A stretch of 64,000 bases of DNA from Symbiodinium sp. CCMP2592. Its lineage: Eukaryota > Sar > Dinophyceae > Suessiales > Symbiodiniaceae. Where the stretch lies: positions 1-64,000 of the forward strand of contig CAJNDT010000935.1 in the NCBI GenBank assembly GCA_905221615.1, written 5' to 3'. The notes beneath the pieces are model-generated. The model saw nothing but the letters and a program-made list of their open reading frames with translations, did no database searches and was not told where the DNA came from. Of the stretch, positions 2,057 through 59,866 are shown piece by piece (within the stretch, counting starts at the first letter, position 1; each line of letters begins with the position of its first letter). A program made the position numbers and the translations under genes.

Positions 2057-2099
2057 TACCTGTCTGTTTGTTAACCAGTGCAAGTGGAAGGCGAATGGA

Positions 2100-3600: not shown

Positions 3601-3649
3601 CAGACAAGGATACCCGAAAGGCCATCCCCAAATAGACCCTAAAGGTCCT

Positions 3650-38822: not shown

Positions 38823-38828
38823 GTTTTC

Positions 38829-38844
38829 TGGTAGCGGAGCCCGG
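38829..38844 (+). other. Primer-binding site
   Basis: TGGTAGCGGAGCCCGG lies six bases after the 5' LTR. Starting with TGG it complements a tRNA 3' CCA end. The sequence resembles the initiator-Met PBS used by many copia elements (TGGTATCAGAGC) but differs at three or more positions, so the priming tRNA is a guess. Confidence 0.7.
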
Positions 38845-38924
38845 AAAGGGCCGCCCGCCTCACAAAGTCCGCTACAGCGGTCGGCCTCGCCGAACGCTTA
38901 ACCAAGCGGATAAGAGGCAGCACA

Positions 38925-41900: not shown

Positions 41901-44900
41901 TCAGAGACTTTCGGTGATCTCACCTTCGTAGATCACGGTGAGCTTCCAATTCCCGGCAAGGATAGTCGCTTAGTATTTCTTATTCTCTATGATGGAGCAA
42001 CAAACTTGTTGACTGCCGAAGTAGTCCAGGATAAAGAAGAACATACTACAATGTCGATTATGAATGACTACTTTGAGAAATTTCAGATCAACCCAAAGGT
42101 TGTAGTTGGAGATCAAGCATTCATGACTCCAAAAATGGAGGCTTATTACAATCGGCAGAATATCAAGCCTGTGGCAACAGGACCTGGAACACCATGGCCC
42201 AACAGGGCCGAAGCTGCTGTAAGATTGCTGAAGCATCAGATTAAGCTCATACTTCAGATCCTGAAGGATGGTGACCCGCAGTATAACGGAATCACCATGA
42301 AGTATGGCAACCTCGTTCGCCAAGCATGTTTGGCAAGAAACTCTTCGATTACCTACGGAGGAGTTACTCCTTTAGAAATGGCCTTTGGAAGGCGTCCTCG
42401 AGATGTTATAACACCAGAGAACGCTGATCCCAATCAGTTGACAGGTAATCCAACTGATACGGAAGTCACTGCGAGAGCCATTAAGGAGCTTGCCAACAGG
42501 GCTTACCAAGAGGCACGCCAATCTGATGATCTGCGTAGAGATCTTGCAGCCAGACTGTCAATGACCCAAGGACCTTTCTCTTTGGGAGATAAGGTTTTCT
42601 ACTGGTCAGAAGATAAGTCTAAGATTGGATCCACTGGGTCCAAACATGGATCTTGGCTAAAAGGTAAGGTGATCTCCGAACTCGGAGGATCCATGGTAGG
42701 TGTGGATCTTGGAACACGCATCGTCCGTGTCAATATCTCAAAACTGAGGAAAAACTATGACATAACATCTGATGTGGAGATTCCTCTCGCGCCTGATGAG
42801 GAAACTCTGACGTCAGAAGGTTCTGACCACGCAAGTTGCATGGTCACCTTCGATGCTTCCCTGCAGTCGACAGACCTAACGATTCCACATCAAGAGTGTC
42901 ACTGGCAGGTCACCAGCACTGGGAAGATTGACTTCCTAGAACTCTACGGCGGATCTCCCCGCATGAGTCACAAAGCTGCCCTGTCAGGTCTTCGAGTAGG
43001 TCAGCCAGTCGATTTGCGTAGCGGTCTAGATCTTGAGCAACCGCAAGGTCGCTCCAATCTTCTTAGGATCATCAAGGAACAAGAACCTACTATTATTGTT
43101 ATGTCACCGGACCATTCTCAGTGGTCTAGCTGGTACTCACAGTGGAAGAAAGGCTCTGCCAAGAGACTTTCTGTTTTAAAATTCTGTGAATCGGTCGCAG
43201 ACCACCAAATGAAGCTCGGACGTTACTTTGTTCTTGAGAACCCATACTACAGCAGGCTCTGGTCTTCACCAGAAGCAAAACGCCTGTTTTCTAATCATAA
43301 GATCAGCTATGAGGTCTGTAACCTACAGGCCTATGGCATGAAAGATCCAACAGGATACTATGAATCGAAATCCTCGATTTTTATGCACAACTTGCCACCG
43401 CAAGTTTTAATTCCTCTCCAGAGGCATTCTGCCAAAACGAAATCTCCAACATCTCCACCAGGAGACGAAAAGGGTATTCAAGGCTACGGTCTTAAGACGA
43501 AACTCGCACAAGTGTATCCTTATGAATTCTGTGAGACCTTTGCCTCGTGTTTGGCAAGATTCCTGAAACGAGATGCGTATGCATCTCATCTGTCTTTAGT
43601 CACAGACATACTAGAATACTCTGGAGATGAATGCCTCCAGGGACTTTCGGAACTTCTTGATCAGGAGTATTCACTTTTGACAACAAATCCTCTCAAGGAT
43701 TCAAAACTCCTGCAAGATCCGAAAATCAGATCACTTGTTGCTAGAGTAAATTCTTTATCGAGTAAAACTGAATTACCATTGCATCATTCCAAACCATCAC
43801 CGTCCCTTGATGCCTTGGTGTCAGACATTACTCGCCTTAGATCAAGACTCTTACCAGGGTCTGGTTTCGAACAGTGTACTCTATACAGAGGTACATTTGG
43901 AACAGTTAAAGCACTCACCAAGCACTGTGTAACTGATGGCGTTCTTGTCTTCTGGAACAAGAAGAAGCCCAATTCGACTATGACGTGTTGCTTGCCGCAC
44001 CAGGTTTCCTGGAACAAAGTACACCCATCAACCTTCTCGGGGGTGCTATTCCAGATGACAGGCGGCAAGACTTCACCGTCCGTGCGAACACCGCCGGATG
44101 TAATCATGTCGGACGAAGAGGTTTCGCCGTCAGACCCGTCGGAACCAATGAGCACTAATCGCTCACGGATCACATCTGACGATGTTTCTATGCCGGAACC
44201 AGATCAGCCGATGCCTCCCGGCACGCCGCCGTCGCGTCCTCCTCCTCCCATACCTCCACCGCGACTACCGGCCGTTTCCTCCGATGAGCCCGTGGCTCCT
44301 GCTCGGGCTAAGCCTCGCGTGCATCCGCCTCCTCGCGTTCCGTCTCCTCGGCGTCTGGGGGGTGATGTGTCGCCAAGGTCTTCATCGGAAAGGAAAGTTT
44401 CGCCGCACAAACAGAAATCACCTTCACAGGTGCCGACACCAAAACCTAAACCGAAGGCACATCCACAGGGACCCATTCTTCCGTTACAACAAGATGAAGA
44501 AGACACTGAAGAAGAACTGGTCCCAGACGACCCCGGACAACCGTCCGCTCCTCCTCACACTTCTGGTTCACCAGAACCGGAGAGCGATGCCGAGTCAGAA
44601 AACACAAGGTATTACTCTGATGAGGAAGGTGACTTGGTCGTAGATGAGAAGGACTGGGTCCTTCTCACAGAAGAACAGAAACTGTGTAGTAACACAGGTT
44701 CTTTCTCCATGCCTCGGTACATGCATGGCGGACCCGTAGACATCAGAGAGGTAACATCAAGAGTGAGGTCAGACCGAACACGGTATAAACCCACTAAAAG
44801 GTTTCGATCTGACATCCGTGAAGAGTATGATCTTCTCACGGAAGAGGACAAGGCCTTATCTCTAAGTTCCCCCAGGAACTCAGTGAACTTAACCCAAAAG

Positions 44901-46169
44901 GCACAGCGGAAGGAGGCAACCGCCAAGGAAAAGCGTGAGATGAAGAAACAGTTTGATGAAGCGAAAGCAGCAGAATATCAGAGCTGGCTAGACAATGATG
45001 TCTTTGAGCTCGTCGATACACGGAAACTCGGAAACATCCGAAATTATGTCACTGGTCGATGGGTCCTGACTCTAAAAAGAGACAAGGACGGAAACTTCCT
45101 TAAGTGCAAGGCCCGATGGGTCCTGAGAGGTTTCCAGGATCGACAGAAGGACATTCAGCAAACTGATAGTCCTGCTGCGAGTCGCCCAGGTTTCCGCTTA
45201 GCGATTCAACTAGCAGCTAACAAGCTGTGGAATCTGACACACATCGACTTAAAGACTGCTTTCCTGCAGGGTGAAGCCTATGATGAGTCGAGAGACATAA
45301 TCTGTCAGATTCCTCCTGAAGCAGGTTATCCTTCCTACATTGCAGCGAGGATGAAGAAACCCGCTTATGGACTTAACGATGCACCTCGAAGATGGTGGAA
45401 CATCGTTGATAAGGCACTCCTGTCTTATGGCCTGGTGCCAACCCGTGCGGATCGCTGTACATATGTTCTGTATGGTAAGAAGTCTGCAACAGCAGATGCT
45501 GAGCTCAAGAAGTCTCAGCCAAAGACCATGGAATCAGCGATTGACTATCTCCTAGATCCCATAGCAGGCAACAATGCCAAGGGTAGACAGGTACATGGAG
45601 TAGTCTGTTTGCATGTAGATGACCTGTGCATGGCCGGTGATGACACCTTTCGTAAGGCCGTGATTGAATCGATCAAAAAGGAATTTGCAGTAGGTTCTGA
45701 AGACACGAATGATATCATGTTTGTAGGACAGAGATTAGTCTGGAAGGATGCTACAGCATCAGTGCCAGCACATATCTCAGTAAATCAGAACCTAGCTGTT
45801 GAAGCTCTAGAAGAAATTGTTTTTGACAAGAAGCTCAACAATGAGCAACAATGCACACCACAGCAGCACACTGCTTATAGAAGTGTTTTAGGACAGATCA
45901 ACTGGCTACAAAGCCGGACTCAAGCTCACATCTGTTATCGCTTCAGTAGGTGTGCGAGCAAGGCTGCCAAGCCTACTATCGGTGATATTCGAGAATTGAA
46001 CAAACTTGTTAGGATTTTGAAGTCTACCGAAGTAGAATTGCGTTTTTGGCCGCTGAAGGAAATCTCAGAATCCTCGGTTACCCTGATGCTTCCTACAGGA
46101 ACAATGATGACAAATCATCTCAGAGAGCACATGTTATTTTCCTTGCTGAAGATCGAAATCCAAAGCTAA
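38925..46169 (+). CDS. Copia Gag-Pol polyprotein with methyltransferase-like insert
   Basis: ATG at 38925, 102 bp after the LTR, opens a 2414-codon frame. Domains in order: Gag-like region (residues ~40-300); Lys/Gly-rich KGKGKG RNA-binding stretch (~362-460) instead of a classical zinc knuckle; aspartic protease with ILDSGCTRAMGS, Asp591; a variant C-x2-C-x6-H-x5-C motif (753-769); Ser/Pro-rich linker; integrase zinc motif (His938/941/943, Cys973/976) and core with Asp1003, Asp1063, Glu1096; a Rossmann/cytosine-methyltransferase-like segment (~1334-1500); Pro-rich linker (~1725-1850); copia reverse transcriptase with DLKTAFLQG (Asp2108), YGLNDAPRRWW and HVDDL (Asp2232/2233). Domain order is diagnostic of Ty1/copia. 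The last ~35 codons (from ~46057) are out of frame relative to RNase H, so this product would lack RNase H. Nested open frames in other phases (e.g. 39703-40554) are shadows. Confidence 0.93.
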   Translation: MSSSHSEADGSSQSSGGYENEETSQGPATYVAQSYATSDRMLASLGITPKIAPAYDGTTSWFEYEQLIDDWCDITTLDDTKRGPSLKTRLSGLAAVQKESLNRERLAAPDGVDYFKKKMRPFFVKGEQYVFLWRFLGLFKAWKGNQDFVTWIAKFEIVLQRVKNSWMDLLPEIALEDAHPDFMQAVQADQTFLRLQDATERDTYAARFFETWNKERLDNHRRAFPLNDNLLALLFLVQSDLNEMQRERLVTALTNQGYRIETYTYPVVRQTMFDQFSTTRTGLQDPNIRHTSHKKDRHGRRDQRRKRGGRNFLILDQGEYDGVDGFWLQDEDTLEEGFLAAEDEEAVFWTVDDHEAFVARRFKKGRRPRMRPGSPGRAKGGKRKGRGRFRSYRGKGRANQAEHDPTDSSYFGKGKGKEKGKGGKGKGKGKDKGDKGSSFKGTKSKGKGKDTAKSASLQGDQTGSPQAYESSTAPSWDSWYEDSYYTDSSWNYAAYDDQTSYTYYASQASRRKTRKKKRRNQAGSSGRGTDPSAHQEPVYNSSVSYVPQVFEPSEGQGVETATAVFPLQHTVLSALTERINLDKSPTFVILDSGCTRAMGSRYAVNRLIKAVKQHAPGMIDFTFSPSNTKFSFADSETALIKERVTLWFNTTPRRDTTIEVLDQGRVPILFSIEQMRNLRMTLECSPTADLATCEAFGLYKTPLPISTNNHLVLDLLGFTSTRKYLPKSGTSFSATETALGANKPYVRIPEGRCPACAGQKKAHTYLKGCDKAPEGAADPPPKRISGKKKPLPSDPAESSAKKLDPPESSGDVPEPSGPSEPSSGSRDKPAESSASHEPPEEERLEVPPAKIKTPKGLKNLLKKSRKYAVKSPVEEKSKVPGADDGTEVRPLESREYPAPGTDSPTGEEIVAEPSPSLPIALRRIHEKLKDPVELYKLHLKHRHMSTDQFKRRTKALQIPKEIYELYDQLVKKCSACQEHVRAPSRAKISGLRSETFGDLTFVDHGELPIPGKDSRLVFLILYDGATNLLTAEVVQDKEEHTTMSIMNDYFEKFQINPKVVVGDQAFMTPKMEAYYNRQNIKPVATGPGTPWPNRAEAAVRLLKHQIKLILQILKDGDPQYNGITMKYGNLVRQACLARNSSITYGGVTPLEMAFGRRPRDVITPENADPNQLTGNPTDTEVTARAIKELANRAYQEARQSDDLRRDLAARLSMTQGPFSLGDKVFYWSEDKSKIGSTGSKHGSWLKGKVISELGGSMVGVDLGTRIVRVNISKLRKNYDITSDVEIPLAPDEETLTSEGSDHASCMVTFDASLQSTDLTIPHQECHWQVTSTGKIDFLELYGGSPRMSHKAALSGLRVGQPVDLRSGLDLEQPQGRSNLLRIIKEQEPTIIVMSPDHSQWSSWYSQWKKGSAKRLSVLKFCESVADHQMKLGRYFVLENPYYSRLWSSPEAKRLFSNHKISYEVCNLQAYGMKDPTGYYESKSSIFMHNLPPQVLIPLQRHSAKTKSPTSPPGDEKGIQGYGLKTKLAQVYPYEFCETFASCLARFLKRDAYASHLSLVTDILEYSGDECLQGLSELLDQEYSLLTTNPLKDSKLLQDPKIRSLVARVNSLSSKTELPLHHSKPSPSLDALVSDITRLRSRLLPGSGFEQCTLYRGTFGTVKALTKHCVTDGVLVFWNKKKPNSTMTCCLPHQVSWNKVHPSTFSGVLFQMTGGKTSPSVRTPPDVIMSDEEVSPSDPSEPMSTNRSRITSDDVSMPEPDQPMPPGTPPSRPPPPIPPPRLPAVSSDEPVAPARAKPRVHPPPRVPSPRRLGGDVSPRSSSERKVSPHKQKSPSQVPTPKPKPKAHPQGPILPLQQDEEDTEEELVPDDPGQPSAPPHTSGSPEPESDAESENTRYYSDEEGDLVVDEKDWVLLTEEQKLCSNTGSFSMPRYMHGGPVDIREVTSRVRSDRTRYKPTKRFRSDIREEYDLLTEEDKALSLSSPRNSVNLTQKAQRKEATAKEKREMKKQFDEAKAAEYQSWLDNDVFELVDTRKLGNIRNYVTGRWVLTLKRDKDGNFLKCKARWVLRGFQDRQKDIQQTDSPAASRPGFRLAIQLAANKLWNLTHIDLKTAFLQGEAYDESRDIICQIPPEAGYPSYIAARMKKPAYGLNDAPRRWWNIVDKALLSYGLVPTRADRCTYVLYGKKSATADAELKKSQPKTMESAIDYLLDPIAGNNAKGRQVHGVVCLHVDDLCMAGDDTFRKAVIESIKKEFAVGSEDTNDIMFVGQRLVWKDATASVPAHISVNQNLAVEALEEIVFDKKLNNEQQCTPQQHTAYRSVLGQINWLQSRTQAHICYRFSRCASKAAKPTIGDIRELNKLVRILKSTEVELRFWPLKEISESSVTLMLPTGTMMTNHLREHMLFSLLKIEIQS
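42918..43430 (+). other. Methyltransferase-like domain within the polyprotein
   Basis: Residues ~1334-1500 of the Gag-Pol frame. FLELYGGSPRMS (from ~1337) fits the SAM-binding motif I of cytosine-C5 methyltransferases (DLFAG.GG.S). SPDHSQWSSW (Pro1395, Asp1396) lies where the motif IV PC catalytic loop would be. ENPYYSRLW (Glu1438) corresponds to the ENV motif VI. The catalytic Cys of PC is replaced by Asp-His, so this copy is unlikely to methylate cytosine by the usual mechanism. Cytosine methyltransferases are known to have been captured by some eukaryotic retrotransposons, including in dinoflagellates. Another Rossmann-fold methyltransferase is possible. Confidence 0.5.
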
Positions 46170-46798
46170 AGGGAATGAAACAATCAGCAGCAGCTGCTTC
46201 TTCCAAGAAGAACGATTTCTCTGAATCCTCTATTAAGGAAACATCCTCGAGAGGTAGCCTGGTGGATTATGAGTCTCACAAGATTACGACAACCACAATG
46301 TCCACAACAGTGGCAGAGCTTAACGCACTGATGCGTTGCTTTGGTACCTGCCTGTTCCTCAAGGGACTTTGGGCAGATCTCTCATCAGAGACCGTACCTA
46401 TACATATCAGAACAGATGCGAACAATCTTGTGACAACAGCAGGCACGACACACCTTCCAGAGCAAAAGGAAACTCACCATCTTATACAGATGCTTCGTAA
46501 GGAATCCAACTCTGGATCATTAGATGACCTAGCTCATGTAAGCTCGAAGTACTGCCTAGCTGATGCATTAACAAAGCATTCGGCACAACCTGATGAGCTT
46601 ATCAAGGCTCTCGAAACAGGAAACTTACCAGAAACAGACATTCATCCACCCTTCCGTGAACTTCTTCAACATAAAGCTTTCACTGTTCGGTGGATCATAG
46701 ACAACCTTAGGAATGCCGCTACAGCGGTAGCCTTCCTTGGAATTGATGTCTCAACAGAGATTTACCGATTATTTTACTGCCAAGGAACATGGTGGTAG
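46046..46798 (+). CDS. RNase H domain of copia Pol, in a shifted frame
   Basis: Continuation of Pol in the -1 frame relative to 38925-46169. The real join lies near 46055-46062, where RFWPLK in the first frame meets GNLRILGYPDASYRN in the second. The sequence then shows copia RNase H features: an early Asp in GYPDASYRN, SSRGSLVDYESHKITTT, STTVAELNAL with the catalytic Glu, HIRTDANNL with a catalytic Asp, and the final YCLADALTKH. It ends at TAG 46796-46798. No canonical X-XXY-YYZ slippery site is present, so a one-base deletion (a GG run at 46058-46059 is the likely place) or an assembly error is more likely than programmed frameshifting. Confidence 0.85.
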   Translation: MAAEGNLRILGYPDASYRNNDDKSSQRAHVIFLAEDRNPKLKGMKQSAAAASSKKNDFSESSIKETSSRGSLVDYESHKITTTTMSTTVAELNALMRCFGTCLFLKGLWADLSSETVPIHIRTDANNLVTTAGTTHLPEQKETHHLIQMLRKESNSGSLDDLAHVSSKYCLADALTKHSAQPDELIKALETGNLPETDIHPPFRELLQHKAFTVRWIIDNLRNAATAVAFLGIDVSTEIYRLFYCQGTWW

Positions 46799-47021
46799 TC
46801 TTGTTTGCTGGTAGCACAACCATGTGCTGGATTTTCTATTTAGACTGTTTTCGTCTAAAAGAAAATTTGTGTCTGCAGGCTGCGTTTTCATCAAGATCGG
46901 ACATGTTCATGAGAACTATATGTTCTGTATCATCCGCAGCCGCTTTCAGCCTCGAGCCTCACAGCAATCAGCTTTTTGAGCTAACCAAGCATTCCTGATC
47001 CTGTTTGGTCATCGTGCCGTA
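46799..47021. other. Spacer between Pol and the second coding region
   Basis: 223 bp without a gene. It contains the 20 bp purine-rich motif at 46856-46875 followed directly by GTCTGCAGGCTG, which also looks like a possible 3' splice acceptor (CAG|G). No second promoter can be recognised. Confidence 0.5.
46856..46875 (+). promoter_or_regulatory. Internal polypurine-type motif
   Basis: TAAAAGAAAATTTGTGTCTG, differing at a single base from TAAAAGAAAATTAGTGTCTG at 54171-54190 just before the 3' LTR. Its position right after the end of Pol is where a normal copia element would have its polypurine tract. Confidence 0.55.
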
Positions 47022-47855
47022 ATGAGCACACGATCAAACTTCCGTAGCCGTGATGGACACGCCCTACCCAGGGCAGTACAGGCGTACCATGAGCGACATC
47101 CACACATGGATAGCTCTTACCCCGAGTCTCGTCGGGAAGCATCACGTCGACACACCGAACACGGTGGACATCGATTTCACAAACGTGAGAAAAATAACGA
47201 GCCTCCATACATTTACATGGGTCACCAACAGGTGTTCAATCCGCGTCCAAGAGATCTTGCTGACCTGATCTTACGATGTGGCCATGCGAGTCGAGCAAGG
47301 CTCACTCCAATCTCCAGACATGGAGTCAGGCTCTACGAAGGAGTCCTTCAAGGACCATGGGACAACAGTCCCCTTTTATACTGGGATAACAACGTGGGTA
47401 ATCACGCTCGTGATCCACGCCAGTTTTGTACGATGCTTGCACATCACCTTCAGACTGGCCTCCCACAGGAGGTAAAACAATGTGTGAGTCTTGATGCATC
47501 TGGAGAATATGACTATTCCTCCTCAGTGCCAAGACTGGTAGAGGTAACAGGTCTCTCACCAGAGATGTGCTTCCACATTCTTTCCAAGACCAACAGAGTC
47601 GGAAGGTGGTTGGCACACTCAACAAGACACCTTCAGAACCAGCGCCAGATCTCTTTTCTGGCCAACACAATTATCTTCTGGACATGTCCAAGTTGGCCGA
47701 TGCAGAGCTCGCACAGTATACACCACAAGAGATCGCGCTTGGTGTCCTCCTTAACACTAAGTCCAGGTTCGTGGTCACTATGGTTTATAACCAAGATGGC
47801 AAGGCCGAAACAACAGATGCCGCCGTTACCATCCCACCGGATGCAAATGTGCTGA
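47022..47855 (+). CDS. Second coding region, N-terminal part (Tpt1/KptA-like start)
   Basis: ATG at 47022. The meaningful part runs to about 47590-47625, where coherent sequence moves to the -1 frame (47567-53884). The N-terminal ~60 residues are Arg/His-rich. Near residue 130, FCTMLAHHLQTGLPQEVKQC, followed by a SLDASGEYDYSSSVPRLVEV stretch, is reminiscent of the N-terminal part of RNA 2'-phosphotransferase (Tpt1/KptA: LS..LRH....L.LD..G.V.V..LL). This resemblance is weak alone but is supported by what follows in the next frame. The remainder of this open frame after ~47625 is probably a shadow. Confidence 0.5.
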   Translation: MSTRSNFRSRDGHALPRAVQAYHERHPHMDSSYPESRREASRRHTEHGGHRFHKREKNNEPPYIYMGHQQVFNPRPRDLADLILRCGHASRARLTPISRHGVRLYEGVLQGPWDNSPLLYWDNNVGNHARDPRQFCTMLAHHLQTGLPQEVKQCVSLDASGEYDYSSSVPRLVEVTGLSPEMCFHILSKTNRVGRWLAHSTRHLQNQRQISFLANTIIFWTCPSWPMQSSHSIHHKRSRLVSSLTLSPGSWSLWFITKMARPKQQMPPLPSHRMQMC

Positions 47856-50800
47856 CCATGACCAAACTTTTCCTCTCGGCAGTGGGAGGACACGGTTCAC
47901 GACGAACTCTACCAAGAGCTGAAGAACCAGATCCTGAAGAAGAGAGGCCAAGGTCACACATGACCATCTCAGACTTCATGGCAACGGGGAGCAATCCTGT
48001 GCAGTCCCATGCACAGCGTCTCTCCACTAACGCGCCAAGGCCCGTAGGCATGGAAGATTTTGTTCGACAGAACAACCCTTGTTACATCATGCATGCCACG
48101 GACTTACAGGCATTATCCTCAATCCTGAGGCATGGTCTGGTACCATCAAACCTCCTATCGCAGGTGGTTACCTCACCAGGTCTTCAAGCTCTCGTGAATG
48201 AAAACAGTCGTTCCAACAGGGACACTGTTCAGTTTTCAACGCTAAACCTGGCGAATCCTAATCCGACTTTGCTGCGTGCCAACAAGGCACTGCTTCTAGT
48301 ATTCGACGCAAATAACGTAGTGAACGAAGTCACAAACATGTGGCAGTCGCAAGCAGGGATGTTTGCTACACCAGAGGTAGTGCATGCCCGTACTCTTAGC
48401 GCCGTATTTGCACCCTCTGAAACACTCTGGGTATCATCGCAATACGATGAGCTCAAGAGCATCGGACCATGGTGGGCAGACCACTGCTCCGAACAGATGC
48501 CGTCAGCGACTTACGAGTCGAAGAAATGGTGCTCAAATTACGGCCAAGAGATCGAATCGACACTTCGCAAGATGTCAAGGCGAAATCTGCCTCCAGAGCC
48601 TCCCAAGGCTAGATCTTCTCACAAGAAGTCTTTCTCTCTGCCAAATACAGAGACTGACACAGCTCCAAACCTGGAGCAAACCGCTTCTGCAGGTGAAGTA
48701 CCTCCGAAAACGGAGACTACTGCAAAGGAGATCCATCCGAGATCCAAGCTCGCCCGGCAGGCCGAGGCCGACAAGGATCCGGACAGTCTTATGGGACAGC
48801 TCTGGAACTCCGACGGCACCAGAAGCGCCACTGAAGTTCTTCAGATAACGACAGGTCACAAACCTCCAGAACCTGTCCAGGATACTTCTGCCAACGTAGT
48901 TCCTCCCAAGGAAGAATCTTCTGGAACAGAGACGGAACCTGAGGAACCAGATCCTAACCAGGATTGTGACGAAGAATCAGACGTTGAGTCGGCATCAAGC
49001 GAAAAGAGCGAGAAGAGCGAAAAGAGCTCAAAATCTTCGTCATCCTCAGAACTCCGAGTTGATGTTAATCCGTCTCACAAGACGAACTCTGCACCTGCAG
49101 CGTCAGAGGAGAAGAAAGAATCTCCCACGGAAGAGATCACAGAGAAACTTGAGAAGGTCAAACTTGACCAACCAAGGCCTGAAACAGAATATGTTCAGAG
49201 CTCAGACGAAGAGCCAAGAAAACCAAAATCTCCTAAAAAGGAGAAGGAAAAATTCCTAGTTCTCTTCGATCCTGAAACAGAAACCTATTATCGAGTCAAC
49301 AGAAGCAAGCTCAACCTCGAATACGAGGAGCCTGCTGATGAGGAAGACCTCGTAAGAGAACATGAGCGCATCAGCGCTCGAATTCGAGAAAATACCAAGC
49401 ACCGAATCTCGAAGTCACCGTCTAACCCGGCTATGCAACAGGAAATGCAAGAGAGAATCTGGGTTAGTCGATGGAATCGAAAAATCCGAAGTCCACTCAT
49501 GATCAAAGATTCTGAGGCTCCTGACGAAGAGGAGTGGGACAGACCCAGAGAGTCGGCATCTTCCTCCTCTGCACCTCCTAACAAGGAGAGATTTGTAGGA
49601 GTACGCAGGACAGCCATGAGCCTTAACCAAAGGATACGAATGTTGCCTCGACCAGACAATCCTCTCTGCGATCTTTGCAAACAGCCTACAGGCTATTTTT
49701 GCTATTCCTGTGGAACGATTGTATGTGCAGATTGTCGACTTACCCCACAGGGTAAACAACGGATGTGCGAGTGCGTCTTGCCAATCGATTGCCTTGAGAC
49801 CTCCAAAGTGAGAGCAGGAATGACCTCAGAAGAGCGTCAGTTTTTATACGAGGCCATCCTCACACATGAGGACGTAGATTTGGCAGTCCAGAAAATCAAC
49901 ATGTATTGCGAACACGCAAGAAGTCTGTTCGAAAAGGACCATCCAGGCGTTGATCCATGCAGCCTTGATGATATTAGGAACAATCCTCCGAATACGTATG
50001 ACAGCTCCACAGAGGCTCCAACCCTGGAGGAATATAAGAGCATTAACAAGAGTCACATCAATATCAAGGACTCTAGAACAAGCCACCCGGCTTCTTTTCT
50101 CTCTCTTACTGGCTACGAAGACAAACTGGTGCTCGACGCACATTACGAGATAGTTCGCAATAGGATGGCCGGTGTTAACGAGAAGAGAGAATACATTGAA
50201 GGCTCAAACCCAGACAGCGTATCGCTAAACCTAGTGGTATTCAACTGGGGAAATATGGATCGAGCGCCGGTGCCCGCAGGGAATCCCAAAAAGAAGCTCA
50301 AACCTGAGAAGGGATTCGATTATCACCCTCTTATTGACATGTGCTTCAACAATTCAGCTCATATTACCCTCGTACTCGAGGCAGGAGCACTTGCGTCAGA
50401 GTATTCGATCGCAACCATGCGACAACATGAATACAGGGGGATGCTAATCCATTCTCCTCCCAAGGAGCCTGAGGCACCCTCAATGTATATTGGAGTCAAG
50501 GGTGACCCAACAACAGACATCGCTCTCGTCCACCACTTTTACCGTCATCGAACAATGAAGCCTAAGAATGGTGGTCCCAAGAAGCGACTGTGGGCATGCC
50601 ACGGTGCGGTATGCCGCCTCACCTTTGGGTACCACAGTACCATACCAGAGGCAAAAGAATGGGTCCACCCATATTCTGGCCAAAGGATGACGAGAGACGA
50701 GTTCATGCAGATTATCGGATATGACCCACTCAAGGGCAAAAATCCTGACAAGGATGGACCCACTGATGGCTCTTACCTCTCACCAGAGGCGTGCCTGACA

Positions 50801-53800
50801 CTGTCGAACCTCGACCCCTCGCCGATTCTCTGTGAATGGAACGGCCATGTCGAGGGTGATGAGCCACCAGAGGAAGACTTTGAGTCATACGCAGAGATCT
50901 TCTCACAAGAAGCATCGAACGATCTTGACGAGATGTGGTGTACAAAAGGGCCTTACAAGGTCATCACCATCGCGATCGTCCATTTCAACTCGTTCATGAC
51001 TCATAAGGAAGAACAGAGACGCGAACTGGTGAACGCGTTCCTCAACGAGGTTCTCCCTTTTAAACCGGATGTAATAGCGGGAGATCTCAATAATATTGCG
51101 TCGAGGCTCACCTTAAAAGGTGGAGACGTTCACCCGCGAAACAGTTTGTTTTCTCTATACCTGGAGAAGAAACTTGCAGCATTCAACAAAATAGCAGGAA
51201 GGCACTCACAAGTGCGACATCTTTGCTTGAACAACTCCGACCAGCACAGACTGGCACGTGCAGATCGTCTACCGGCGGACCCGGCGAAGAAAGTTGCTGA
51301 CCTTGACTGTATCAACAGTTATATCCTTGACTGGAGTAAAACGCCGCACACGGCGTCACCTAGTCCAAGAGAGGTCACACCTGCCGCCGAAAGAACATAC
51401 TGGGAGCGAATCTCAGATATGTGGCAGGACACGAACAACAACAGGGATATTGATATCCGTCTGTTTGTCTCAGTCAAGCAGTACTATTCAACTTTTTCTA
51501 ACCTTGACCTATGGTTGAGTCCCTCTGACAAAGATTGGCACAGCCCTTTGGGCTTCACGATACAACCAATCCTTACAAAAGGGAAACACAACCGGTCAGA
51601 TGCCCAGGTCCAAAAGATCGCTGACAAGCGAAAGGCTTACAAGCAGCGTAATGCTGAATACTGGGGTTACAACGATTCATTCGTTTACTCATCCGGCAAC
51701 AGCTGGTACGACAAATCGCAACCATCAGGTAGCCATCACAGATATGGAAGATTCTGGGAGTGGCCACAGCCTGAACGTCCCAGCGAGCCTGAAGGTCCTC
51801 CTCCAAGAAGGAACCAGGAATCATCGTCCTCTTCACAACAAGATCTACCAAGATCAAGGTCCAGGCCTCAAAGAACCAATATTGTTGACAAGCTCAACAT
51901 GTCTTTGGAAGAGCTGGATGGACTAGAAGAAGAACCGTCACCAACAAAAAGTGACATCGAAGAACACGAAAGAGAAACATCAAACTTGATGTCCGCTCAA
52001 GAGGACGAATGCTCCGAGCGCGCCAAGGCACTCAGAACAGCTGCTACAGCAGCGGGGTTGTCGGGCTGGTTCGGACACCGCAACCGAGGTGGAGCGAACG
52101 CAGAGTCTACCAAGACTGATGAAACTTCACTTCCAAACTCACTAACCAGTGAGCAGGACTTCTCCGTCTTCAGCATCGCGTGGAATGTGTTCCTGCTGCT
52201 AATGGGCTTACACTGGATGTGGAAGCAGATTACCAGGCCTCCTATCAGATGTATGGAGCGCCAACAACCAAAATCAAAAGCAGCAGCGAACCAAAGAGTT
52301 CCATTCCTCGAACCCGAGGATGAACCGCAGACGCGTGAACCTTTAGGACCCAACAGGGTCAATTCCGGAGAAACAACTGATCTGCGACCTATCTGGCATA
52401 CTTCCCGAAGCGAAGTCTACCATCTCTCAGACAGCTGTTACCAGCTCAAGCAAGCAAGAGATGTTTGCAAGAAGGTGCTGTGTAAAAACTGCCTCCATGC
52501 AGTACAAGTTGCGGAGATTCGCAGGAACGATCCTTTCCAAAGAGGTGATACACGACCACGTGGCACCGAAAGAGACATTGAGCGCTTCCAGACCTACGAT
52601 GATGCAAGTAACACTCCTCACATGACACAATTATTCAAGGATGCCTTGCATGCACAAATGGCCGAAGAAGCCATGCAGATTACCTATACATCGATCCCCA
52701 AGGGATCCTCGGCAAAGGCCAGAGGTACATCTGCACTCTCAAGTGCCGCATCGTCATCAGCGCCCAAGGCAATGCCACCAGGGCCTAACAAGGCAAACAT
52801 ATCACCTCCACCTAAGAGTCCTCCGCCAAAGGCGAAAGGAACAGTACCTTCTGATCCTCCAAGACCAAAAGGTCCTACCAGAAGAGGAGGTCAAAATCGG
52901 CGCATTCAACGAAAGGCAGCTAGAGAAGCCCACAACAGTGGACTCTGCACCTATGCAGACGCTGCACTTGACGAAGCCAATCAAGGCCAGGCAATTAACG
53001 TTACGTGCCGAAACATAGTAGCAAGACACGTCAGCTCTATCGATGCAACGGTAGAAGCAGCCGGCCAGTTTACACAACGCGTGCTACAGCACGTAGAAAC
53101 ATATGATGAAGAGGAACCGTGGAGCACGGAGTTCCTACCAGTCGTGGAAGTCCTATTCAGGAACTTAAGCGGCGACGAAACAACTGTCATACATGACAAT
53201 CAAACGGTAACTATGCCTCTTGCGAAATACACAGACCTCCTCAGAATCGCACAAGCATTGCGAGGCTCTATCCAGAGAGACAAGGAGGAAAGAAAGGAAC
53301 ATCTTGACACCATCCAAGATACTCTATCCAGAGTGGAAATCCTTCTAACAGCACTGAAGGACTCAAGGACAGTCTTTAACCAATTGGTCCATTCCTCACT
53401 AGAGATAGAGCGAAGAAATAACAATCTCAAAAATGTCCTCGAGACACTCTTTGACGACCAAAGCTCTGAGGAAGACCAGTCAGAATCTGACAATGAAGAA
53501 GTCCTAACTCCTTCTGCACCACAGTACTGGAATAGCCTTTATGCCCACGCCTTATCTCCTTCAGGAGATGAAAGTGAAAGATCATGGGCGTCCTCAGACG
53601 GACAGCTTGAAAGAAGAAGGGCTGAACGGGCAAAGGCTAAGCAGCCGCAACCGGCAAAAGCCAAGGCAACTCCAGCCAGCTCACAAGCTGCTCCAAAGGC
53701 CGAGCCAAAGGCGATAACATCCAACCATGGATATGATACTGCAGACGCCGCCTTCACCAGGGCGGAGAACAGATTACTCGGAATCTTTTCAAGTTCCGAA

Positions 53801-53884
53801 GAAGACCACTCAGACCCGGATGAGCCACATCCGAACGTCTACGCTCGAGCCTATGATCCAAACCTGGATCCGAATCTGAGATAA
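47567..53884 (+). CDS. Second giant ORF: Tpt1-like, Cys-rich, EEP-like, membrane segment
   Basis: 2105-codon frame; the biological start is probably the ATG at 47022 in another frame. Recognisable parts: TKSRFVV, then NPCYIMHATDLQALSSILRH followed by GL (~169-191), RDTVQFST (~218), KALLLVFDANNV and AGMFATPEVVHARTLSAVF (~263-281), together resembling the C-terminal half of Tpt1/KptA; acidic Ser/Glu/Lys-rich linker (~330-690); eight-cysteine module Cys701-736 (C-x2-C-x7-C-x2-C-x4-C-x2-C-x10-C-x1-C); EEP-like region (~885-1255) with Glu938, His1139 and a GDLNN motif (Asp1173, Asn1175); transmembrane helix ~1530-1552; HTSRSEVYHLSDSC plus CKNC (Cys1624, Cys1639, Cys1642); Pro/Lys-rich stretch; coiled coil ~1890-1965. 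Not a normal copia gene. The domain names are motif-level inferences, and the usual Tpt1 RANQGHS motif was not found. Confidence 0.72.
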   Translation: MLPHSFQDQQSRKVVGTLNKTPSEPAPDLFSGQHNYLLDMSKLADAELAQYTPQEIALGVLLNTKSRFVVTMVYNQDGKAETTDAAVTIPPDANVLTMTKLFLSAVGGHGSRRTLPRAEEPDPEEERPRSHMTISDFMATGSNPVQSHAQRLSTNAPRPVGMEDFVRQNNPCYIMHATDLQALSSILRHGLVPSNLLSQVVTSPGLQALVNENSRSNRDTVQFSTLNLANPNPTLLRANKALLLVFDANNVVNEVTNMWQSQAGMFATPEVVHARTLSAVFAPSETLWVSSQYDELKSIGPWWADHCSEQMPSATYESKKWCSNYGQEIESTLRKMSRRNLPPEPPKARSSHKKSFSLPNTETDTAPNLEQTASAGEVPPKTETTAKEIHPRSKLARQAEADKDPDSLMGQLWNSDGTRSATEVLQITTGHKPPEPVQDTSANVVPPKEESSGTETEPEEPDPNQDCDEESDVESASSEKSEKSEKSSKSSSSSELRVDVNPSHKTNSAPAASEEKKESPTEEITEKLEKVKLDQPRPETEYVQSSDEEPRKPKSPKKEKEKFLVLFDPETETYYRVNRSKLNLEYEEPADEEDLVREHERISARIRENTKHRISKSPSNPAMQQEMQERIWVSRWNRKIRSPLMIKDSEAPDEEEWDRPRESASSSSAPPNKERFVGVRRTAMSLNQRIRMLPRPDNPLCDLCKQPTGYFCYSCGTIVCADCRLTPQGKQRMCECVLPIDCLETSKVRAGMTSEERQFLYEAILTHEDVDLAVQKINMYCEHARSLFEKDHPGVDPCSLDDIRNNPPNTYDSSTEAPTLEEYKSINKSHINIKDSRTSHPASFLSLTGYEDKLVLDAHYEIVRNRMAGVNEKREYIEGSNPDSVSLNLVVFNWGNMDRAPVPAGNPKKKLKPEKGFDYHPLIDMCFNNSAHITLVLEAGALASEYSIATMRQHEYRGMLIHSPPKEPEAPSMYIGVKGDPTTDIALVHHFYRHRTMKPKNGGPKKRLWACHGAVCRLTFGYHSTIPEAKEWVHPYSGQRMTRDEFMQIIGYDPLKGKNPDKDGPTDGSYLSPEACLTLSNLDPSPILCEWNGHVEGDEPPEEDFESYAEIFSQEASNDLDEMWCTKGPYKVITIAIVHFNSFMTHKEEQRRELVNAFLNEVLPFKPDVIAGDLNNIASRLTLKGGDVHPRNSLFSLYLEKKLAAFNKIAGRHSQVRHLCLNNSDQHRLARADRLPADPAKKVADLDCINSYILDWSKTPHTASPSPREVTPAAERTYWERISDMWQDTNNNRDIDIRLFVSVKQYYSTFSNLDLWLSPSDKDWHSPLGFTIQPILTKGKHNRSDAQVQKIADKRKAYKQRNAEYWGYNDSFVYSSGNSWYDKSQPSGSHHRYGRFWEWPQPERPSEPEGPPPRRNQESSSSSQQDLPRSRSRPQRTNIVDKLNMSLEELDGLEEEPSPTKSDIEEHERETSNLMSAQEDECSERAKALRTAATAAGLSGWFGHRNRGGANAESTKTDETSLPNSLTSEQDFSVFSIAWNVFLLLMGLHWMWKQITRPPIRCMERQQPKSKAAANQRVPFLEPEDEPQTREPLGPNRVNSGETTDLRPIWHTSRSEVYHLSDSCYQLKQARDVCKKVLCKNCLHAVQVAEIRRNDPFQRGDTRPRGTERDIERFQTYDDASNTPHMTQLFKDALHAQMAEEAMQITYTSIPKGSSAKARGTSALSSAASSSAPKAMPPGPNKANISPPPKSPPPKAKGTVPSDPPRPKGPTRRGGQNRRIQRKAAREAHNSGLCTYADAALDEANQGQAINVTCRNIVARHVSSIDATVEAAGQFTQRVLQHVETYDEEEPWSTEFLPVVEVLFRNLSGDETTVIHDNQTVTMPLAKYTDLLRIAQALRGSIQRDKEERKEHLDTIQDTLSRVEILLTALKDSRTVFNQLVHSSLEIERRNNNLKNVLETLFDDQSSEEDQSESDNEEVLTPSAPQYWNSLYAHALSPSGDESERSWASSDGQLERRRAERAKAKQPQPAKAKATPASSQAAPKAEPKAITSNHGYDTADAAFTRAENRLLGIFSSSEEDHSDPDEPHPNVYARAYDPNLDPNLR

Positions 53885-54170
53885 GAAAATTCTCAGAGTT
53901 TCACAACAGTGACTCACAAAGCTCTAACAAGAGCAAGGTGAAAGGCTGCATAATTCGATGTAGAAAACATCACCAGACATGATCTTGTACAGATGATCTC
54001 TCTGACCAACATGCATGAGTGTGTGTGCAAAATGAGTGGAGTGTCCTCAGCAGTGTACTTCAGTGCTATACCTAGCATAAATAATATGCTGTTTTTATCA
54101 TGAGTCCAAACTCCGCAACTGTGACAGTGGGCATAATAGTATATGTGTGAATGTGCGGCCATGCTTCCGG
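53885..54170. other. 3' untranslated region of the second ORF
   Basis: From the TAA of the second ORF to the purine-rich motif. No gene. Contains an AATAATATG stretch near 54081 but no clear polyadenylation signal. Confidence 0.5.
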
Positions 54171-54190
54171 TAAAAGAAAATTAGTGTCTG
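54171..54190 (+). promoter_or_regulatory. Polypurine tract candidate before the 3' LTR
   Basis: TAAAAGAAAATTAGTGTCTG, ending two bases before the LTR start TGAAAC. The purine run AAAAGAAAA is 12 bases from the LTR, not adjacent as in most elements, so its role as plus-strand primer is uncertain. Confidence 0.5.
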
Positions 54191-54192
54191 TT

Positions 54193-54440
54193 TGAAACCA
54201 TAAACCTCTAAAGGGGTAGCTCTAACAGGTACCTACAGCAATGGCTGCATGCTCATACATATACATTCCGCTGCCCATTGGCTCACAGTGGTTTTACCAT
54301 ATTGAGACAAGACAAGCTCTCCTTGCGTAGCAAGACAAAACAACTACTGTCCGTGTGCAGGGCGCTGCCCTTTGATCCTTAGGGAATAACTGGTCATACA
54401 CCTCCTTACAAGGAGTATCCCTTGGGGGTGTATCGGCACA
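54193..54440 (+). repeat. 3' LTR
   Basis: 248 bp, TGAAACC...GGCACA, identical to the 5' LTR except at 54236 and 54407. Followed directly by GGGGG. Confidence 0.95.
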
Positions 54441-54500
54441 GGGGGAGGGGGGGGGGGGAGGGGGGGGGGGGAGGGGGGAGGGGGGAGGGGGGGGTGGGGA
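54441..54500 (+). repeat. G-rich tract at the insertion site
   Basis: Long G runs broken by single A residues (GGGGGAGGGG pattern), ending GGGGTGGGG. Together with the 11-G run before the 5' LTR this is the tract into which the retrotransposon inserted. Potential G-quadruplex sequence. Confidence 0.85.
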
Positions 54501-56060: not shown

Positions 56061-57219
56061 GGCAAGTACAAGCCAATATGACGTGTCAGTACCTCTTATA
56101 CCCCGACATTATGGACTACATTATGCTGTATTCTATTCGACTGTACTGCTTGGTGTCATGCTGCATGTTTCCGTTTCTGCATTATCTGGTCTCATTTTGT
56201 TACCTCACCATATCAAAATCTTTAGCCGTCGTTGCATTTATGATGGTTGCGGCATCCTTATCTCTGACCCTTTCTCTTGGCACTTTAGATATCTGTCTAT
56301 CTCTATGCCTAGGACCCAGATGTATCGTTACTCTTTGTGCTATCACTCTGCAATTACATCTTGTTCCTTTCGGATGATATACTGCATTGTATCTTGTTAT
56401 GTTCTACAAGTATATCACACTTACTTCACATCACATCATACTATGTACTACTTGTATGACAGAGTAGCCTACTGGCCTACTGGCCTAAAACCCTAGCCCC
56501 GAAACCGTGCTCTCATCTCCGACTGGTTCTAGGTTTAGGGCGTGGGGTTTAGGGTTTCGGGTATCGGCGTTTCGGGTTTGGGGTTTTGGGTTAATTTAGA
56601 GATTTTGGCCAACATCTCCAAAATCCGAACCCATACATTCCAAAGCTCAGACTCGGACATGTGAAAGCCCTGAATCCTACACTTCTACCCTAGTTAAAAC
56701 CTTATCCCATGGTTTAGCGGTTTTTCGGATTTTGGGTTTTAGGGATCTACTCTTGAGGACCCCCCCGAATGGTCAGAATCCTCCTGTCCAGCTTCGGCAA
56801 TGGGCGCGCGCACGGATTGCAGCGTGGTTTTTTCTACAGCTCCGAAAAGACACGCCTGCGATTTTGGGGTTCTTGTTAATGGGTTTACTTCAAGTTGCCA
56901 TAATAAGGAAACCATGTTGTTGCGGTAGATTTCTATCATAGCAACTTAACTTAAAGTCTTTAACAATAACCCAGCTTTCCGAGCCGATGCCCGAAATCCC
57001 TTAATTAATCCGGAAACTTGGCCCAAATCCTAAACCGAAGCCCCACGAAAAACCCGATTCCACACCCTACAGTAGCTATTTTAGAGTTTAGGGCTCTTGC
57101 ACCAAGACCGGACCGCAAGGGTGCAGAAGGATTCCATATGCTATCAGTCTCTAAAGGTCTAAAACTTACAGAATATTTGTCTGGGTTCTACCAGTGTTCT
57201 ATAGGGGTGGGATATACGT

Positions 57220-57225
<6 letters not shown>
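56061..57225. other. Gene-free stretch
   Basis: The open frame 56059-56496 (+) is Tyr/Ser/Leu-rich with no motif, embedded in the AT-rich repeat region, and is not called. Degenerate GGGTTTAGGG words lie at 56520-56600. Confidence 0.45.
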
Positions 57226-57250
<25 letters not shown>

Positions 57251-57435
57251 CATTTATGTACGCATGTACATCTTTCTGTGATGACCATTTGCGTGTACAT
57301 GCTAAGCCACCGTCCGTTTGGAACAAGTTCCAACACAAAACATCGCAAAACCTTATGTGTGGAAACACAGGGGCCCCACAGTGTTCCTTTCTGTATATGT
57401 ACGTATATATATATATATATATATATATATGGTCG
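57226..57435. repeat. (TA)n tracts
   Basis: TATATA tracts at about 57232-57252 and 57403-57431. The second runs straight into GGTCGCCCCCCCCGCTGACA, which recurs inverted at 59672-59712. Confidence 0.8.
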
Positions 57436-57477
57436 CCCCCCCCGCTGACAGACCATGCCCTTCCAACTCACACGTAG
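57436..57477. repeat. GACAGACCATG junction repeat
   Basis: CGCTGACAGACCATGCCCTT next to a (TA)n tract. The reverse complement AAGGCCATGGTCTGTCAACG stands at 59676-59696 next to another TA tract. Confidence 0.55.
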
Positions 57478-57935
57478 CGCGTGGTCTGTCATGGGGGAGG
57501 GGGCACTCAGCCCTCAAAAACTCAATTCCAAAATTTTCAAAATTCTCTCCCCCAATTTTCCGGATTTCCGAAATTTCCCAAATTTCCAAAATATCCAAAG
57601 TTTCCAAAAATTCCAAAATTTCCAAAAATTGTAAATTTTCCAAAATTTCTAATATTTGCCAAAAAGAATTTTGAAATTGACCAATTTTCCAAAGTTTCCC
57701 AAAAGTCCGCACTTATGTTTTGAAAAAACCCTGTCCAGTAGGTCGGGCCGTTTTGGAAATTTTGGAAATTGTGGAAATTTTGGGATTTTTCTAATTTTTT
57801 GAATTTTTGTAAATTTTGGAACTTTGGAAATTTTTGAAATTTCGGAAACTTTGGAAATTTTGGAATTTCTGGACCTCTTGGAATTGATTCTGAGGAAGGC
57901 TGATTGTGACCCATCCGATGACAGACCATGCACTA
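57478..57935. repeat. Palindromic TTTCCAAA element
   Basis: The left half is built from TTTCCAAAATTTCC words, the right half from their complement TTTTGGAAATTTTGG, centred near 57710. The ends pair as well: GCGTGGTCTGTCATGGGGGA at the left and TCCGATGACAGACCATGCAC at the right, with CTCAGCC/GGCTGA words further in. The element could form one ~450 bp imperfect hairpin. Overlapping open frames are Phe/Lys/Ile/Ser-rich artefacts. Confidence 0.78.
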
Positions 57936-59480
57936 CGACTTACTTGCAAAGGCAAGGGCTGTCAATACTCATGCCCATATTTAGACGAATATCTCTCTAT
58001 TTATCTATCTATCGATATATACATGTATGTGTTGATTCCCCTACATATAGTATTGCCATTGCTAATACTGACTTTGATCATTTGTTGAATGCTCAAGCTA
58101 ATACCAGCATTACTACTGATATCACACTTCTATAAAGCCTAGTACGAATATGCATAACACAAATACTAATATTGATTTATATTGCTCGCAGTACTCCTAC
58201 GCATATCAATAATCATATTCATATTGGAATAGTGTATATTTCTTCCAATACTAACACACACCTGTATGTAGTAATGTACATAAATATGCAAACCACTATT
58301 TTAACATACAAATCCTTTAACTCACTCATGTATTCAACTGTTAGCATTTTCACGTGATCAAGAGTAATACTAATGCAAACATTCTTGCGAATGCAGACCA
58401 TCAATAATATTATAGTACTAATGCTATCACTACTGCTAATACTTAACACAATATTTATACTTACATCAATATTTACATAGCTATTGATACTCCTACGAAT
58501 ACAAATACGTAAACTCTTGTGCGTTAACAATAGTGCTATCACCAACACTAATCCGGACTTTGATAATCTGCTGAATATTCAAGAATGCCACTAGTATTAC
58601 CAGCATGAACACTCATAGTATGGCTAATACGAGTATAGCTAGTCTTAATTCTAATAATATTGACATTAATACTCCTACGGATACCAATAGTATATTCATA
58701 TTGATATGAAAACTAATATCATTACTGATAGACACCTGCATATACTAATGTACATAGAATGCATGCCACTATCTTAAGATACAGATATATACATTAGTGC
58801 ATTCATGTATAATGCTTTGGCATAGGCATATACCCATATACCAATGTAACAATATACTTCTCGTTGTTGTATGAACATACTATACTAATATGTGAGTATA
58901 CTAATATACGACTACTGCAATATGCAAGAATACCGACATGACAAGTTCGTATACGAATATGCCAACATACTGATATACTTAAACATGATTAGACAATACA
59001 TGAATATAGTACACATACTAGTATACTAATATGCTAACGTACGAATATGTTGGTATGTTAATATACTAGTAAACTAATACACCAATATACTCGTGTATTC
59101 ATGCACCAGTTGTACTAACATGTAAAGTATACTAGTATACAAGTATGCAAATATTTTACTGTTCGAATACATTCATGTGTTGATATACTAATCTGCTAAT
59201 ATACGAGACTATCAATATACTAACATATCAAAACTACCTAGTTCTAGTATTGATACTATAATACTAGCACTTCTGCGAATATAAGCTGCTATTAAACCCA
59301 GCATTAAGACTGATACTGATACTACTCGTCGCAGTGGTGCTGTATTATTGACATTGACACGTACTGGCACTAGCGCTAACTCTAACACGAACATGAGCAC
59401 TAACACTAATTTATAGTTGGCAATATTGATATGTATACTTACAGCAAACAATAGTGCTAATATTAACAATAATACTCACC
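57936..59480. repeat. AT-rich degenerate ACTAATAC/TATACTAATA region
   Basis: Short TATCTATC runs near 57990-58010, then ~1.4 kb dominated by words such as ACTAATACTAAT, ATACTAATATAC and CGAATATGC at irregular spacing. It reads like an old, decayed simple repeat. No gene supported. Confidence 0.6.
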
Positions 59481-59671
59481 CTAATACCGATACCACCACA
59501 AAACTAGTACGTAACTCATGTGCCACACGTCTGGTGCATGCGTCCTCAGTACATGGCATGTCAAAGTATACGTTGTATATCTACTTAAAGGTCTTACTTT
59601 ACAGATTATCGCCGGGTGTGGTGTGTTTAGATACAATATCTCAGCCGAGTCACCTGCCAAGAGTACAGTGT

Positions 59672-59768
59672 CACAAGGCCATGGTCTGTCAACGGGGGGG
59701 GGGGGCGAGCATATACATATATATATATATATATATATACATATGTATATATACATATGTATATATAC

Positions 59769-59807
<39 letters not shown>

Positions 59808-59866
59808 TATGTATACATATGTATGTATGCAAGTATGTATGTATGTGTGTATATATATATATAGGG
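59672..59866. repeat. CATGGTCTGTCA-G tract-(TA)n composite
   Basis: GGCCATGGTCTGTCAACG, 12 or so G, GCGAGCATATACA, then ~155 bp of TATA with periodic TACATATGTATA blocks. It is the inverted counterpart of the arrangement at 57403-57465. Confidence 0.75.

Follow-up and report, generated by a model that had tools for sequence, protein, structure and literature searches.

The 64,000-nucleotide stretch that we analysed from Symbiodinium sp. CCMP2592, an alga belonging to the coral symbionts' kind (contig CAJNDT010000935.1, positions 1 to 64,000; henceforth the window) carries a copia-type long terminal repeat (LTR) retrotransposon spanning positions 38575–54441, in which a second coding region, here called open reading frame 2 (ORF2), lies between Pol and the 3′ LTR. 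At the level of sequence, our comparisons establish ORF2 as a conserved component of a Symbiodinium copia family, situated between pol and the 3′ LTR where plant elements carry the sense ORFs termed aORF-3S. They also support the presence within ORF2 of a distant homologue of the nicotinamide adenine dinucleotide (NAD) lobe of Tpt1/KptA, a cysteine cluster, and a segment resembling EEP-type phosphodiesterases and phosphatases. A dinoflagellate genome holds a copia element with an accessory protein of more than 2,000 residues in which no Pfam family scores above its cut-off.

ORF2 is a conserved part of a Symbiodinium copia family

A first-pass annotation, made from the letters alone, had proposed that Pol and the 3′ LTR are separated by approximately 6.9 kb of extra coding sequence, forming one giant ORF at 47022–53884. 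The coding sequence is present and reaches position 53884, but in the window it is not a single ORF and instead occupies two overlapping frames (all features described are on the forward strand unless stated otherwise). The start of ORF2 (MSTRSNF, with its ATG at 47022) lies in frame A (47022–47855), which relatives match up to ~47.66 kb, and the main part lies in frame B (47513–53884; 2,123 amino acids from stop to stop). Between 47648 and 53881, frame B contains no stop in 2,078 codons, compared with 55 and 120 stops in the other two sense frames. The models of five related proteins (P0002, P0003, P0004, P0010 and P0011) read unbroken through ~47.65 kb, where the window switches frame, which indicates that either the window copy or its assembly is frameshifted there. 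Codon usage was discarded as evidence for coding frames. Although its correlation with Gag-Pol was 0.82 for frame B and 0.73–0.76 otherwise, the coding frames did not win in the frame-A part, where the reverse complement (0.81) exceeded the coding frame (0.75), or at the end of Pol, where the open frame was lowest (0.60 vs 0.67–0.73).

Three protein searches yielded 11 relatives of ORF2 (4 of 3,182 candidates, 4 of 7,994 scored, and 3 of 7,577). The dinoflagellate setting assumed in the first-pass annotation fits, in that all four of the named relatives come from Symbiodinium: sp. CCMP2592 (P0001 and P0004), sp. KB8 (P0006) and S. microadriaticum (P0008). Two of these keep the join between Pol and ORF2. 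In P0004, the integrase, Pol and ORF2 are joined in the order found in the window, with at least 95% identity in 9 of 14 pieces. P0008 has the order ORF2–Gag–Pol–ORF2, as expected of two neighbouring elements, and is 69% identical to the window over its ORF2 stretch and 78% over its Pol stretch. The 11 relatives, together with the joins in P0004 and P0008, identify ORF2 as a family trait rather than an unrelated insertion in one copy, and on these comparisons we hold with high confidence that it is a genuine conserved part of the element, and probably a functional one. As to the gene models themselves, P0008 looks like two adjacent copies annotated as one gene, and P0004 is named BSL3 and has a Metallophos domain (PF00149), its model apparently running into a host phosphatase.

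For comparison along the length of ORF2 we used P0002, a 1,900-residue model found on three contigs and 56% identical to the window over 1,677 alignment positions. P0002 diverges from the window at a point where ~490 residues of ORF2 still remain, and over these last residues the support from another lineage consists of short pieces of P0008 only; P0001 and P0004 represent near-identical copies, and over this part their models are partly in another frame. Scans of viral and prokaryotic contigs, each limited to between two and six short peptide patterns, revealed no relative, a result that counts against close relatives in such contigs but not against distant ones.

A probable KptA-type NAD lobe

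KptA strips 2′-phosphates using NAD. The proposed resemblance of ORF2 to Tpt1/KptA withstood profile comparison with controls for the NAD lobe, and far less clearly for the RNA lobe. PTS_2-RNA (PF01885) was Pfam's best family for 47648–48622 (E = 0.001, 19.6 bits); by way of calibration, the integrase region of the same element, whose identity is certain, scores just 18.5 bits in Pfam. We then compared ORF2 by hhalign with a profile built from E. coli KptA and nine further KptA proteins (eight from plasmids and one from phage G). The match extended from the HAT motif to the last strand, with an E-value of 2.5e-6, a probability of 88.7% and a score of 48.1. None of 200 column shuffles reached this score (maximum 27.3) and the reversed control gave 17.4, while wrong-pair controls were at chance, with 110 of 200 and 165 of 200 shuffles scoring as high. 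By this measure of homology, ORF2 very likely holds a KptA-type NAD lobe (48068–48442), with a predicted ADP-ribosyltransferase (ART) fold and the motifs HAT, NRD and LRANK.

The residues expected of such a lobe are largely in place. H105, T107, R125 and R143 of E. coli KptA align with H, T, R and R of ORF2, and because the alignment places them there, the last Arg of the essential tetrad and the His and Thr of the HGT motif are probably kept. The placement of R125 was the same in hmmsearch and in hhalign without realignment. ORF2 also shares with the family (PF01885; E. coli KptA and CthTpt1) the order of the elements of the NAD lobe, namely HxT, the R of RxxVxLS, an R before the next strand, the DA strand and the final strand. 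It differs in having HAT for HGT, an insertion of 22 residues ahead of the Arg and lobes separated by a long spacer, and in that the domain is embedded in a retroelement protein of more than 2,000 residues rather than forming an enzyme of ~180 residues.

In Tpt1/KptA, the winged-helix RNA lobe bears the Arg-His...Arg of the essential tetrad (PMC6333775). In ORF2, the first three residues of the tetrad would correspond to those of TRH and the R of NTxSRF, which lie upstream of the NAD lobe in a candidate winged-helix-like RNA lobe (47622–47842; TRH in frame A and NTKSRF in frame B). The spacing from RH to R, counted by eye, is 47 residues in this candidate and 48 in E. coli KptA. A profile of the KptA RNA lobe, when placed without guidance, landed on TRH...SRF with its R, H and R on the triad. 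We take a Tpt1 RNA lobe to be likely here, though it is only weakly supported. By eye, the stretch immediately upstream of the candidate lobe may hold another winged-helix-like repeat, of weaker resemblance. Among 13 sequences scanned, comprising both frames of the window and the 11 relatives, TRH was found in six, NTxSRF in six, HAT in six, NRD in four and LRAxK in five; by reading of the alignment, the sequences lacking these motifs diverge at them or do not cover them, with P0010 and P0011 diverging at NRD.

Several observations weigh against a KptA-type enzyme. The Pfam score of 19.6 bits is below the PF01885 cut-off of 26; realigned hhalign puts R125 ahead of the insertion and off the conserved Arg; and the HGT motif has become HAT, with an Ala in place of G106. 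For the RNA lobe, the profile score was matched by 1 of 200 shuffles and 2 of 15 decoy windows, the triad was recovered in 1 of 15 decoys, a longer RNA-lobe profile was not significant (14 of 150 shuffles as high), and hhalign did not detect the lobe. In addition, the AlphaFold model of the KptA-like region, made from a 5-row alignment, was unusable (predicted local distance difference test, pLDDT, 36.9).

An EEP-like region

The first-pass annotation had also recognised an EEP nuclease-like region, which we place at 50213–51637. By eye, the order of its motifs, NWGN (50243), LEA (within LVLEA, 50369), VHFNS (50978), GDLNN (51080), DLDCIN (51299) and DxDWHxP (DKDWHSP, 51527), follows the EEP scheme. 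Within the same 13 sequences, NWGN was present in six, LEA in seven, VHFNS in seven, GDLNN in six, DLDCIN in five and DxDWHxP in three. P0003 diverges at DxDWHxP, and the other sequences lacking motifs skip or do not cover the place, again by reading of the alignment.

Profile comparison provided moderate evidence for one part of this region. In hhalign against eight bacterial EEP proteins, ORF2 matched with a probability of 52% and an E-value of 1.4e-4, and the score of 39.6 exceeded the maximum of 200 shuffles (28.8). Against 12 EEP proteins, and with a larger alignment of the element, the E-value was 9.5e-4 and the score of 33.2 was again above all shuffles (maximum 25.3, 0 of 150). The signal is confined to the segment from VH through a helix to GDLN, which taken separately was equalled by none of 60 shuffles. 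An EEP fold in ORF2 is thus a reading that we favour while holding it with appreciable doubt.

That doubt has several sources, all of which count against the region being an EEP enzyme. With the larger alignments, the hhalign probability dropped from 52% to 22%. A profile of the N-terminal half of EEP proteins was placed elsewhere than on NWGN and LEA, with 4 of 60 shuffles scoring as high, and the terminal SDH of EEP proteins reads DWH in ORF2. Searches of this region against Pfam and the sequences of the PDB gave no EEP (PF03372) match, and AlphaFold, given a 6-row alignment, produced an unusable model (pLDDT 30.3). A C-terminal EEP profile did fall on DKDWHNP, at chance level (16 of 60 shuffles as high). 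Sequence searches of the PDB with four alignments of ORF2 regions gave either no match or matches that we took as chance, and the failure of AlphaFold for both the KptA-like and the EEP-like region is attributable to there being too few relatives.

Other parts of ORF2 and their conservation

Between the two enzyme-like regions lies the predicted eight-cysteine module, which is present in the sequence as four Cys pairs (CxxC-CxxC-CxxC-CxC, 49667–49792). This cluster is B-box-like, with a zf-B_box match (E = 2.4e-4, 21.7 bits) below the cut-off of 24.1, and P0002 is without one of its cysteines. The membrane helix that had been proposed further downstream corresponds to a hydrophobic segment (52160–52237) that is real but borderline as a helix, with a Kyte-Doolittle value of 1.56 in the window and 1.32 in P0005, against the usual 1.6; residues 1546–1580 of ORF2 are identical to P0002 at 28 of 35 positions. 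The further Cys/His motif of the same annotation (YHLSDSC...CKNC, 52418–52492) was found in the sequence and is outside the coverage of P0002, whose model diverges just before it. The proposed coiled coil corresponds to coiled-coil-like heptads (53198–53407) with hydrophobic residues at 11 of 16 a/d positions by a simple count, in which the score is the same whether the stretch begins at residue 1833 or at residue 1840.

To what extent the enzyme-like regions stand out can be gauged from region-wise identity to P0002. The EEP-like region (74% and 67%) and the hydrophobic segment (80%) stand out, whereas the NAD lobe (62%) does not; the cysteine cluster is 61% identical and three spacers are 44%, 49% and 50% identical. 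Two of these comparisons tell against an enzymatic role: five stretches without enzyme resemblance (59%, 59%, 62%, 63% and 64%) are on par with the NAD lobe, and the candidate RNA lobe is only 49% identical.

The internal tract and leader upstream of ORF2

A 20-nt polypurine-like tract (54171–54190) lies two bases before the 3′ LTR, and a copy of it with one mismatch is found between Pol and ORF2 (46856–46875). None of 200 Markov resamples of the element contained a match to the tract with at most one mismatch. At the matching place, P0002 and P0011 encode SKRKLASA, and since this resembles the SKRKFVSA that the window DNA would give in one frame, the internal tract appears to be conserved. 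It could represent a central polypurine tract, serve as a splice acceptor (CAG follows it), or be the scar left when ORF2 was joined to the old element end. P0002 (residues 1–76) and P0011 (residues 1–72) have in-frame extensions before MSTRSN, reading MSKRKLASACL-LLLALTC..., that are strongly hydrophobic, with Kyte-Doolittle values of 2.0 and 2.3, and look like a signal peptide. In the window we rejected the corresponding leader (46833–47021) as signal-peptide code, since its DNA, though still recognisable, is interrupted by stop codons and shifts of frame.

What ORF2 might do

The explanation that we prefer for these features is that ORF2 is a conserved accessory polyprotein that processes RNA ends; with its mechanism included, we regard it as tentative, and its chances as short of even. 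Beyond a conserved ORF with KptA and EEP resemblances, we infer every step. Translation of ORF2 would yield a large accessory polyprotein, with its one hydrophobic segment perhaps acting as a tether. Terminal or internal 2′-phosphates would be removed or capped by the Tpt1-like domain with the help of NAD, while hydrolysis of end phosphates or trimming of ends would fall to the EEP-like domain, in the manner of ANGEL2 on 2′,3′-cyclic phosphates. As a result, the RNA of the element, or its tRNA primer, would stay usable after cuts by host RNases. There is precedent for the parts: ANGEL2 is an enzyme with an EEP domain that acts hydrolytically on 2′,3′-cyclic and terminal phosphates (PMC9525292), and KptA is found in jumbo phages and in the polyproteins of a few positive-strand RNA viruses, for which the handling of RNA cleaved by RNases of the host or the virus has been proposed (PMC9503650). 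Two points weigh against RNA-end processing as a whole. Pfam scans revealed neither an RNA ligase nor a 2H domain, which RNA repair usually needs, and the window copy is frameshifted in both Pol, which is split over two frames, and ORF2. A fully specified version, in which the family encodes its own RNA-end-healing polyprotein, combining a Tpt1-type phosphotransferase with an EEP domain and a zinc module, held by a membrane tether, expressed as a second ORF behind the internal copy of the polypurine tract, and mending the RNase-cut ends of template or tRNA primer, is unlikely to be right in every particular.

An Env-like or structural accessory protein, that is, a sense accessory ORF with a membrane segment and a coiled coil in which enzyme-like folds serve as non-catalytic scaffolds, is possible, though we would not expect it. 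It would account for the position shared with plant aORF-3S/ENV-like genes, among which a transmembrane segment is sometimes present (PMC7264820), for the signal-peptide-like hydrophobic extension upstream in P0002 and P0011, for the non-canonical HAT and DWH motifs, and for the conservation of some non-enzyme stretches to the same degree as the NAD lobe. However, residues of catalytic type are retained wherever a relative covers them cleanly, and in the window copy the reading frame of the upstream extension is closed. Alternatively, ORF2 could act in counter-defence, with the KptA-like lobe ADP-ribosylating host proteins or nucleic acids and the EEP-like domain degrading a nucleic acid or nucleotide signal used in defence. 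Viral ARTs mostly evolve fast and have been suggested to act in conflicts (PMC9503650), and the restriction of the four named relatives to one genus, with none seen when viral and prokaryotic contigs were scanned with a few short patterns, is as expected of arms-race genes. We nonetheless consider this rather unlikely, as the closest profile tested, in a comparison where KptA was the only ART family represented, is that of an RNA-directed ART.

We give still less credence to an EEP-like domain directed at DNA, which would be a nickase of the apurinic/apyrimidinic-endonuclease type, as in long interspersed nuclear elements (LINEs), working in integration or in the processing of cDNA. The matching EEP profile does include E. 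coli exonuclease III, and Exo_endo_phos is among the domains of Symbiodinium retrotransposons with DNA methyltransferases (DNMTs), which are a possible source (figure legend of PMC5890265). Yet the element already has an integrase-like region, and the matched segment, being common to EEP enzymes, is uninformative as to DNA or RNA. Equally improbable in our estimation is that ORF2 is a conserved copia accessory gene whose two enzyme resemblances are due to chance or are too distant to inform on function. ORF2 does lack a Pfam family above cut-off and a PDB sequence match, and its structure models failed; against this, the true KptA and EEP pairs beat every shuffle, and wrong pairs do not.

If both of the enzyme-like domains prove active, retroelements would join phages and RNA viruses as parasites that carry RNA-end repair. 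One could then test whether RNase attack on the template or primer is a limiting factor in retrotransposition, and which tasks Tpt1 enzymes perform beyond tRNA splicing of the fungal type.

Relation to known elements

The first-pass view that the architecture of the element is not a standard one holds, among the matches listed, for its domain content and not for its layout. A KptA-like or EEP-like accessory protein in an LTR element was absent among the matches listed from the open-licence PubMed Central literature, whereas plant elements are known to carry sense ORFs at this position. These aORF-3S/ENV-like ORFs share with ORF2 the sense orientation and the location downstream of pol and ahead of the 3′ LTR, and some include a membrane segment, but they are described as ENV-like, without KptA or EEP content in the excerpts (PMC7264820). 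Among the matches listed, then, a sense ORF in this position and the capture of enzymes by Symbiodinium retroelements are known, and the combined KptA-like and EEP-like content is new.

Other known systems share individual traits with the element. RNA viruses with KptA polyproteins (Beihai picorna-like virus and Botrylloides leachii nidovirus; PMC9503650) similarly have a KptA-type domain in the polyprotein of a replicating RNA element; they belong to another host lineage, whereas here the carrier is an LTR retrotransposon with an EEP-like segment alongside. The word "retrotransposon" has no occurrence in the main text of PMC9503650. In the same host genus, Symbiodinium LINE and DIRS elements have captured DNMTs, which is a different enzyme in other element classes, and according to that report Symbiodinium Copia elements are without any DNMT domain (PMC5890265). 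Orchid Ty3/Gypsy elements with an N6-methyladenosine (m6A) RNA demethylase domain (PMC9289625) are another instance of an LTR element gaining an RNA-modifying enzyme domain, and differ in being Gypsy elements, in their plant host and in the enzyme acquired. The accessory domains given in the excerpts of PMC6338049 are chromodomains, a DnaQ-like exonuclease and RNA helicases, and not KptA or EEP.

Structure of the element and other features of the window

The element is bounded by a 5′ LTR (38575–38823), which starts with TGAAACC, ends with CACA(G) and is set in a G-rich tract, and a 3′ LTR (54193–54441) that pairs with it as a repeat family. The two LTRs are 249 bp each and differ at only two positions, and for this reason the insertion looks recent. 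Both flanks of the element are G runs, so that a target-site duplication is not distinguishable. The G-rich tract on the two sides (38560–38574 and 54442–54499) may reflect an insertion preference or an effect of G runs on assembly. Immediately 3′ of the 5′ LTR, the likely primer binding site (38829–38840) reads TGGTAGCGGAGC and is putatively initiator-tRNA-Met-like. A half-tRNA primer, as in Drosophila copia, is disfavoured because the TGGTA that follows the 5′ LTR fits the 3′ end of a full tRNA.

The Gag-Pol ORF extends over 38925–46169, with an integrase-like region from ~41925 and RVT_2 at residues 2054–2213 of the translation of 38835–46166. The RVT_2 match is strong (E = 7.6e-17, 62.2 bits against a cut-off of 31.6). 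Upstream of it is a match to the integrase core, rve (E = 0.0025), whose 18.5 bits fall below the cut-off of 32.6, and this order of integrase before RVT_2 is that of copia. The last part of Pol lies in another frame (46013–46798) and is presumed from its position to be RNase H, although a Pfam scan gave no match there. The two frame changes in this young-looking element (46013–46169 and ~47650) may reflect decay, assembly error or a programmed shift. Between the integrase and the reverse transcriptase, a segment of Pol (42933–43347) reading FLELYGGSPRMS...RYFVLENPYYSRLW...LQAYGMKD resembles, by eye, a degenerate C5 DNA methyltransferase; Pfam gave no convincing match to this segment, and a PDB sequence search gave only matches that we took as chance.

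None of four strings tested as spliced-leader relics was present in the window. Elsewhere in the window, an ORF of 873 amino acids on the reverse strand (28161–30782) has a C2H2 zinc-finger match just below the Pfam cut-off (E = 1.3e-4). Positions 2001–4000 form an AT-rich stretch with a G+C content of 28%, and long AT-rich simple repeats occupy 57200–59900.

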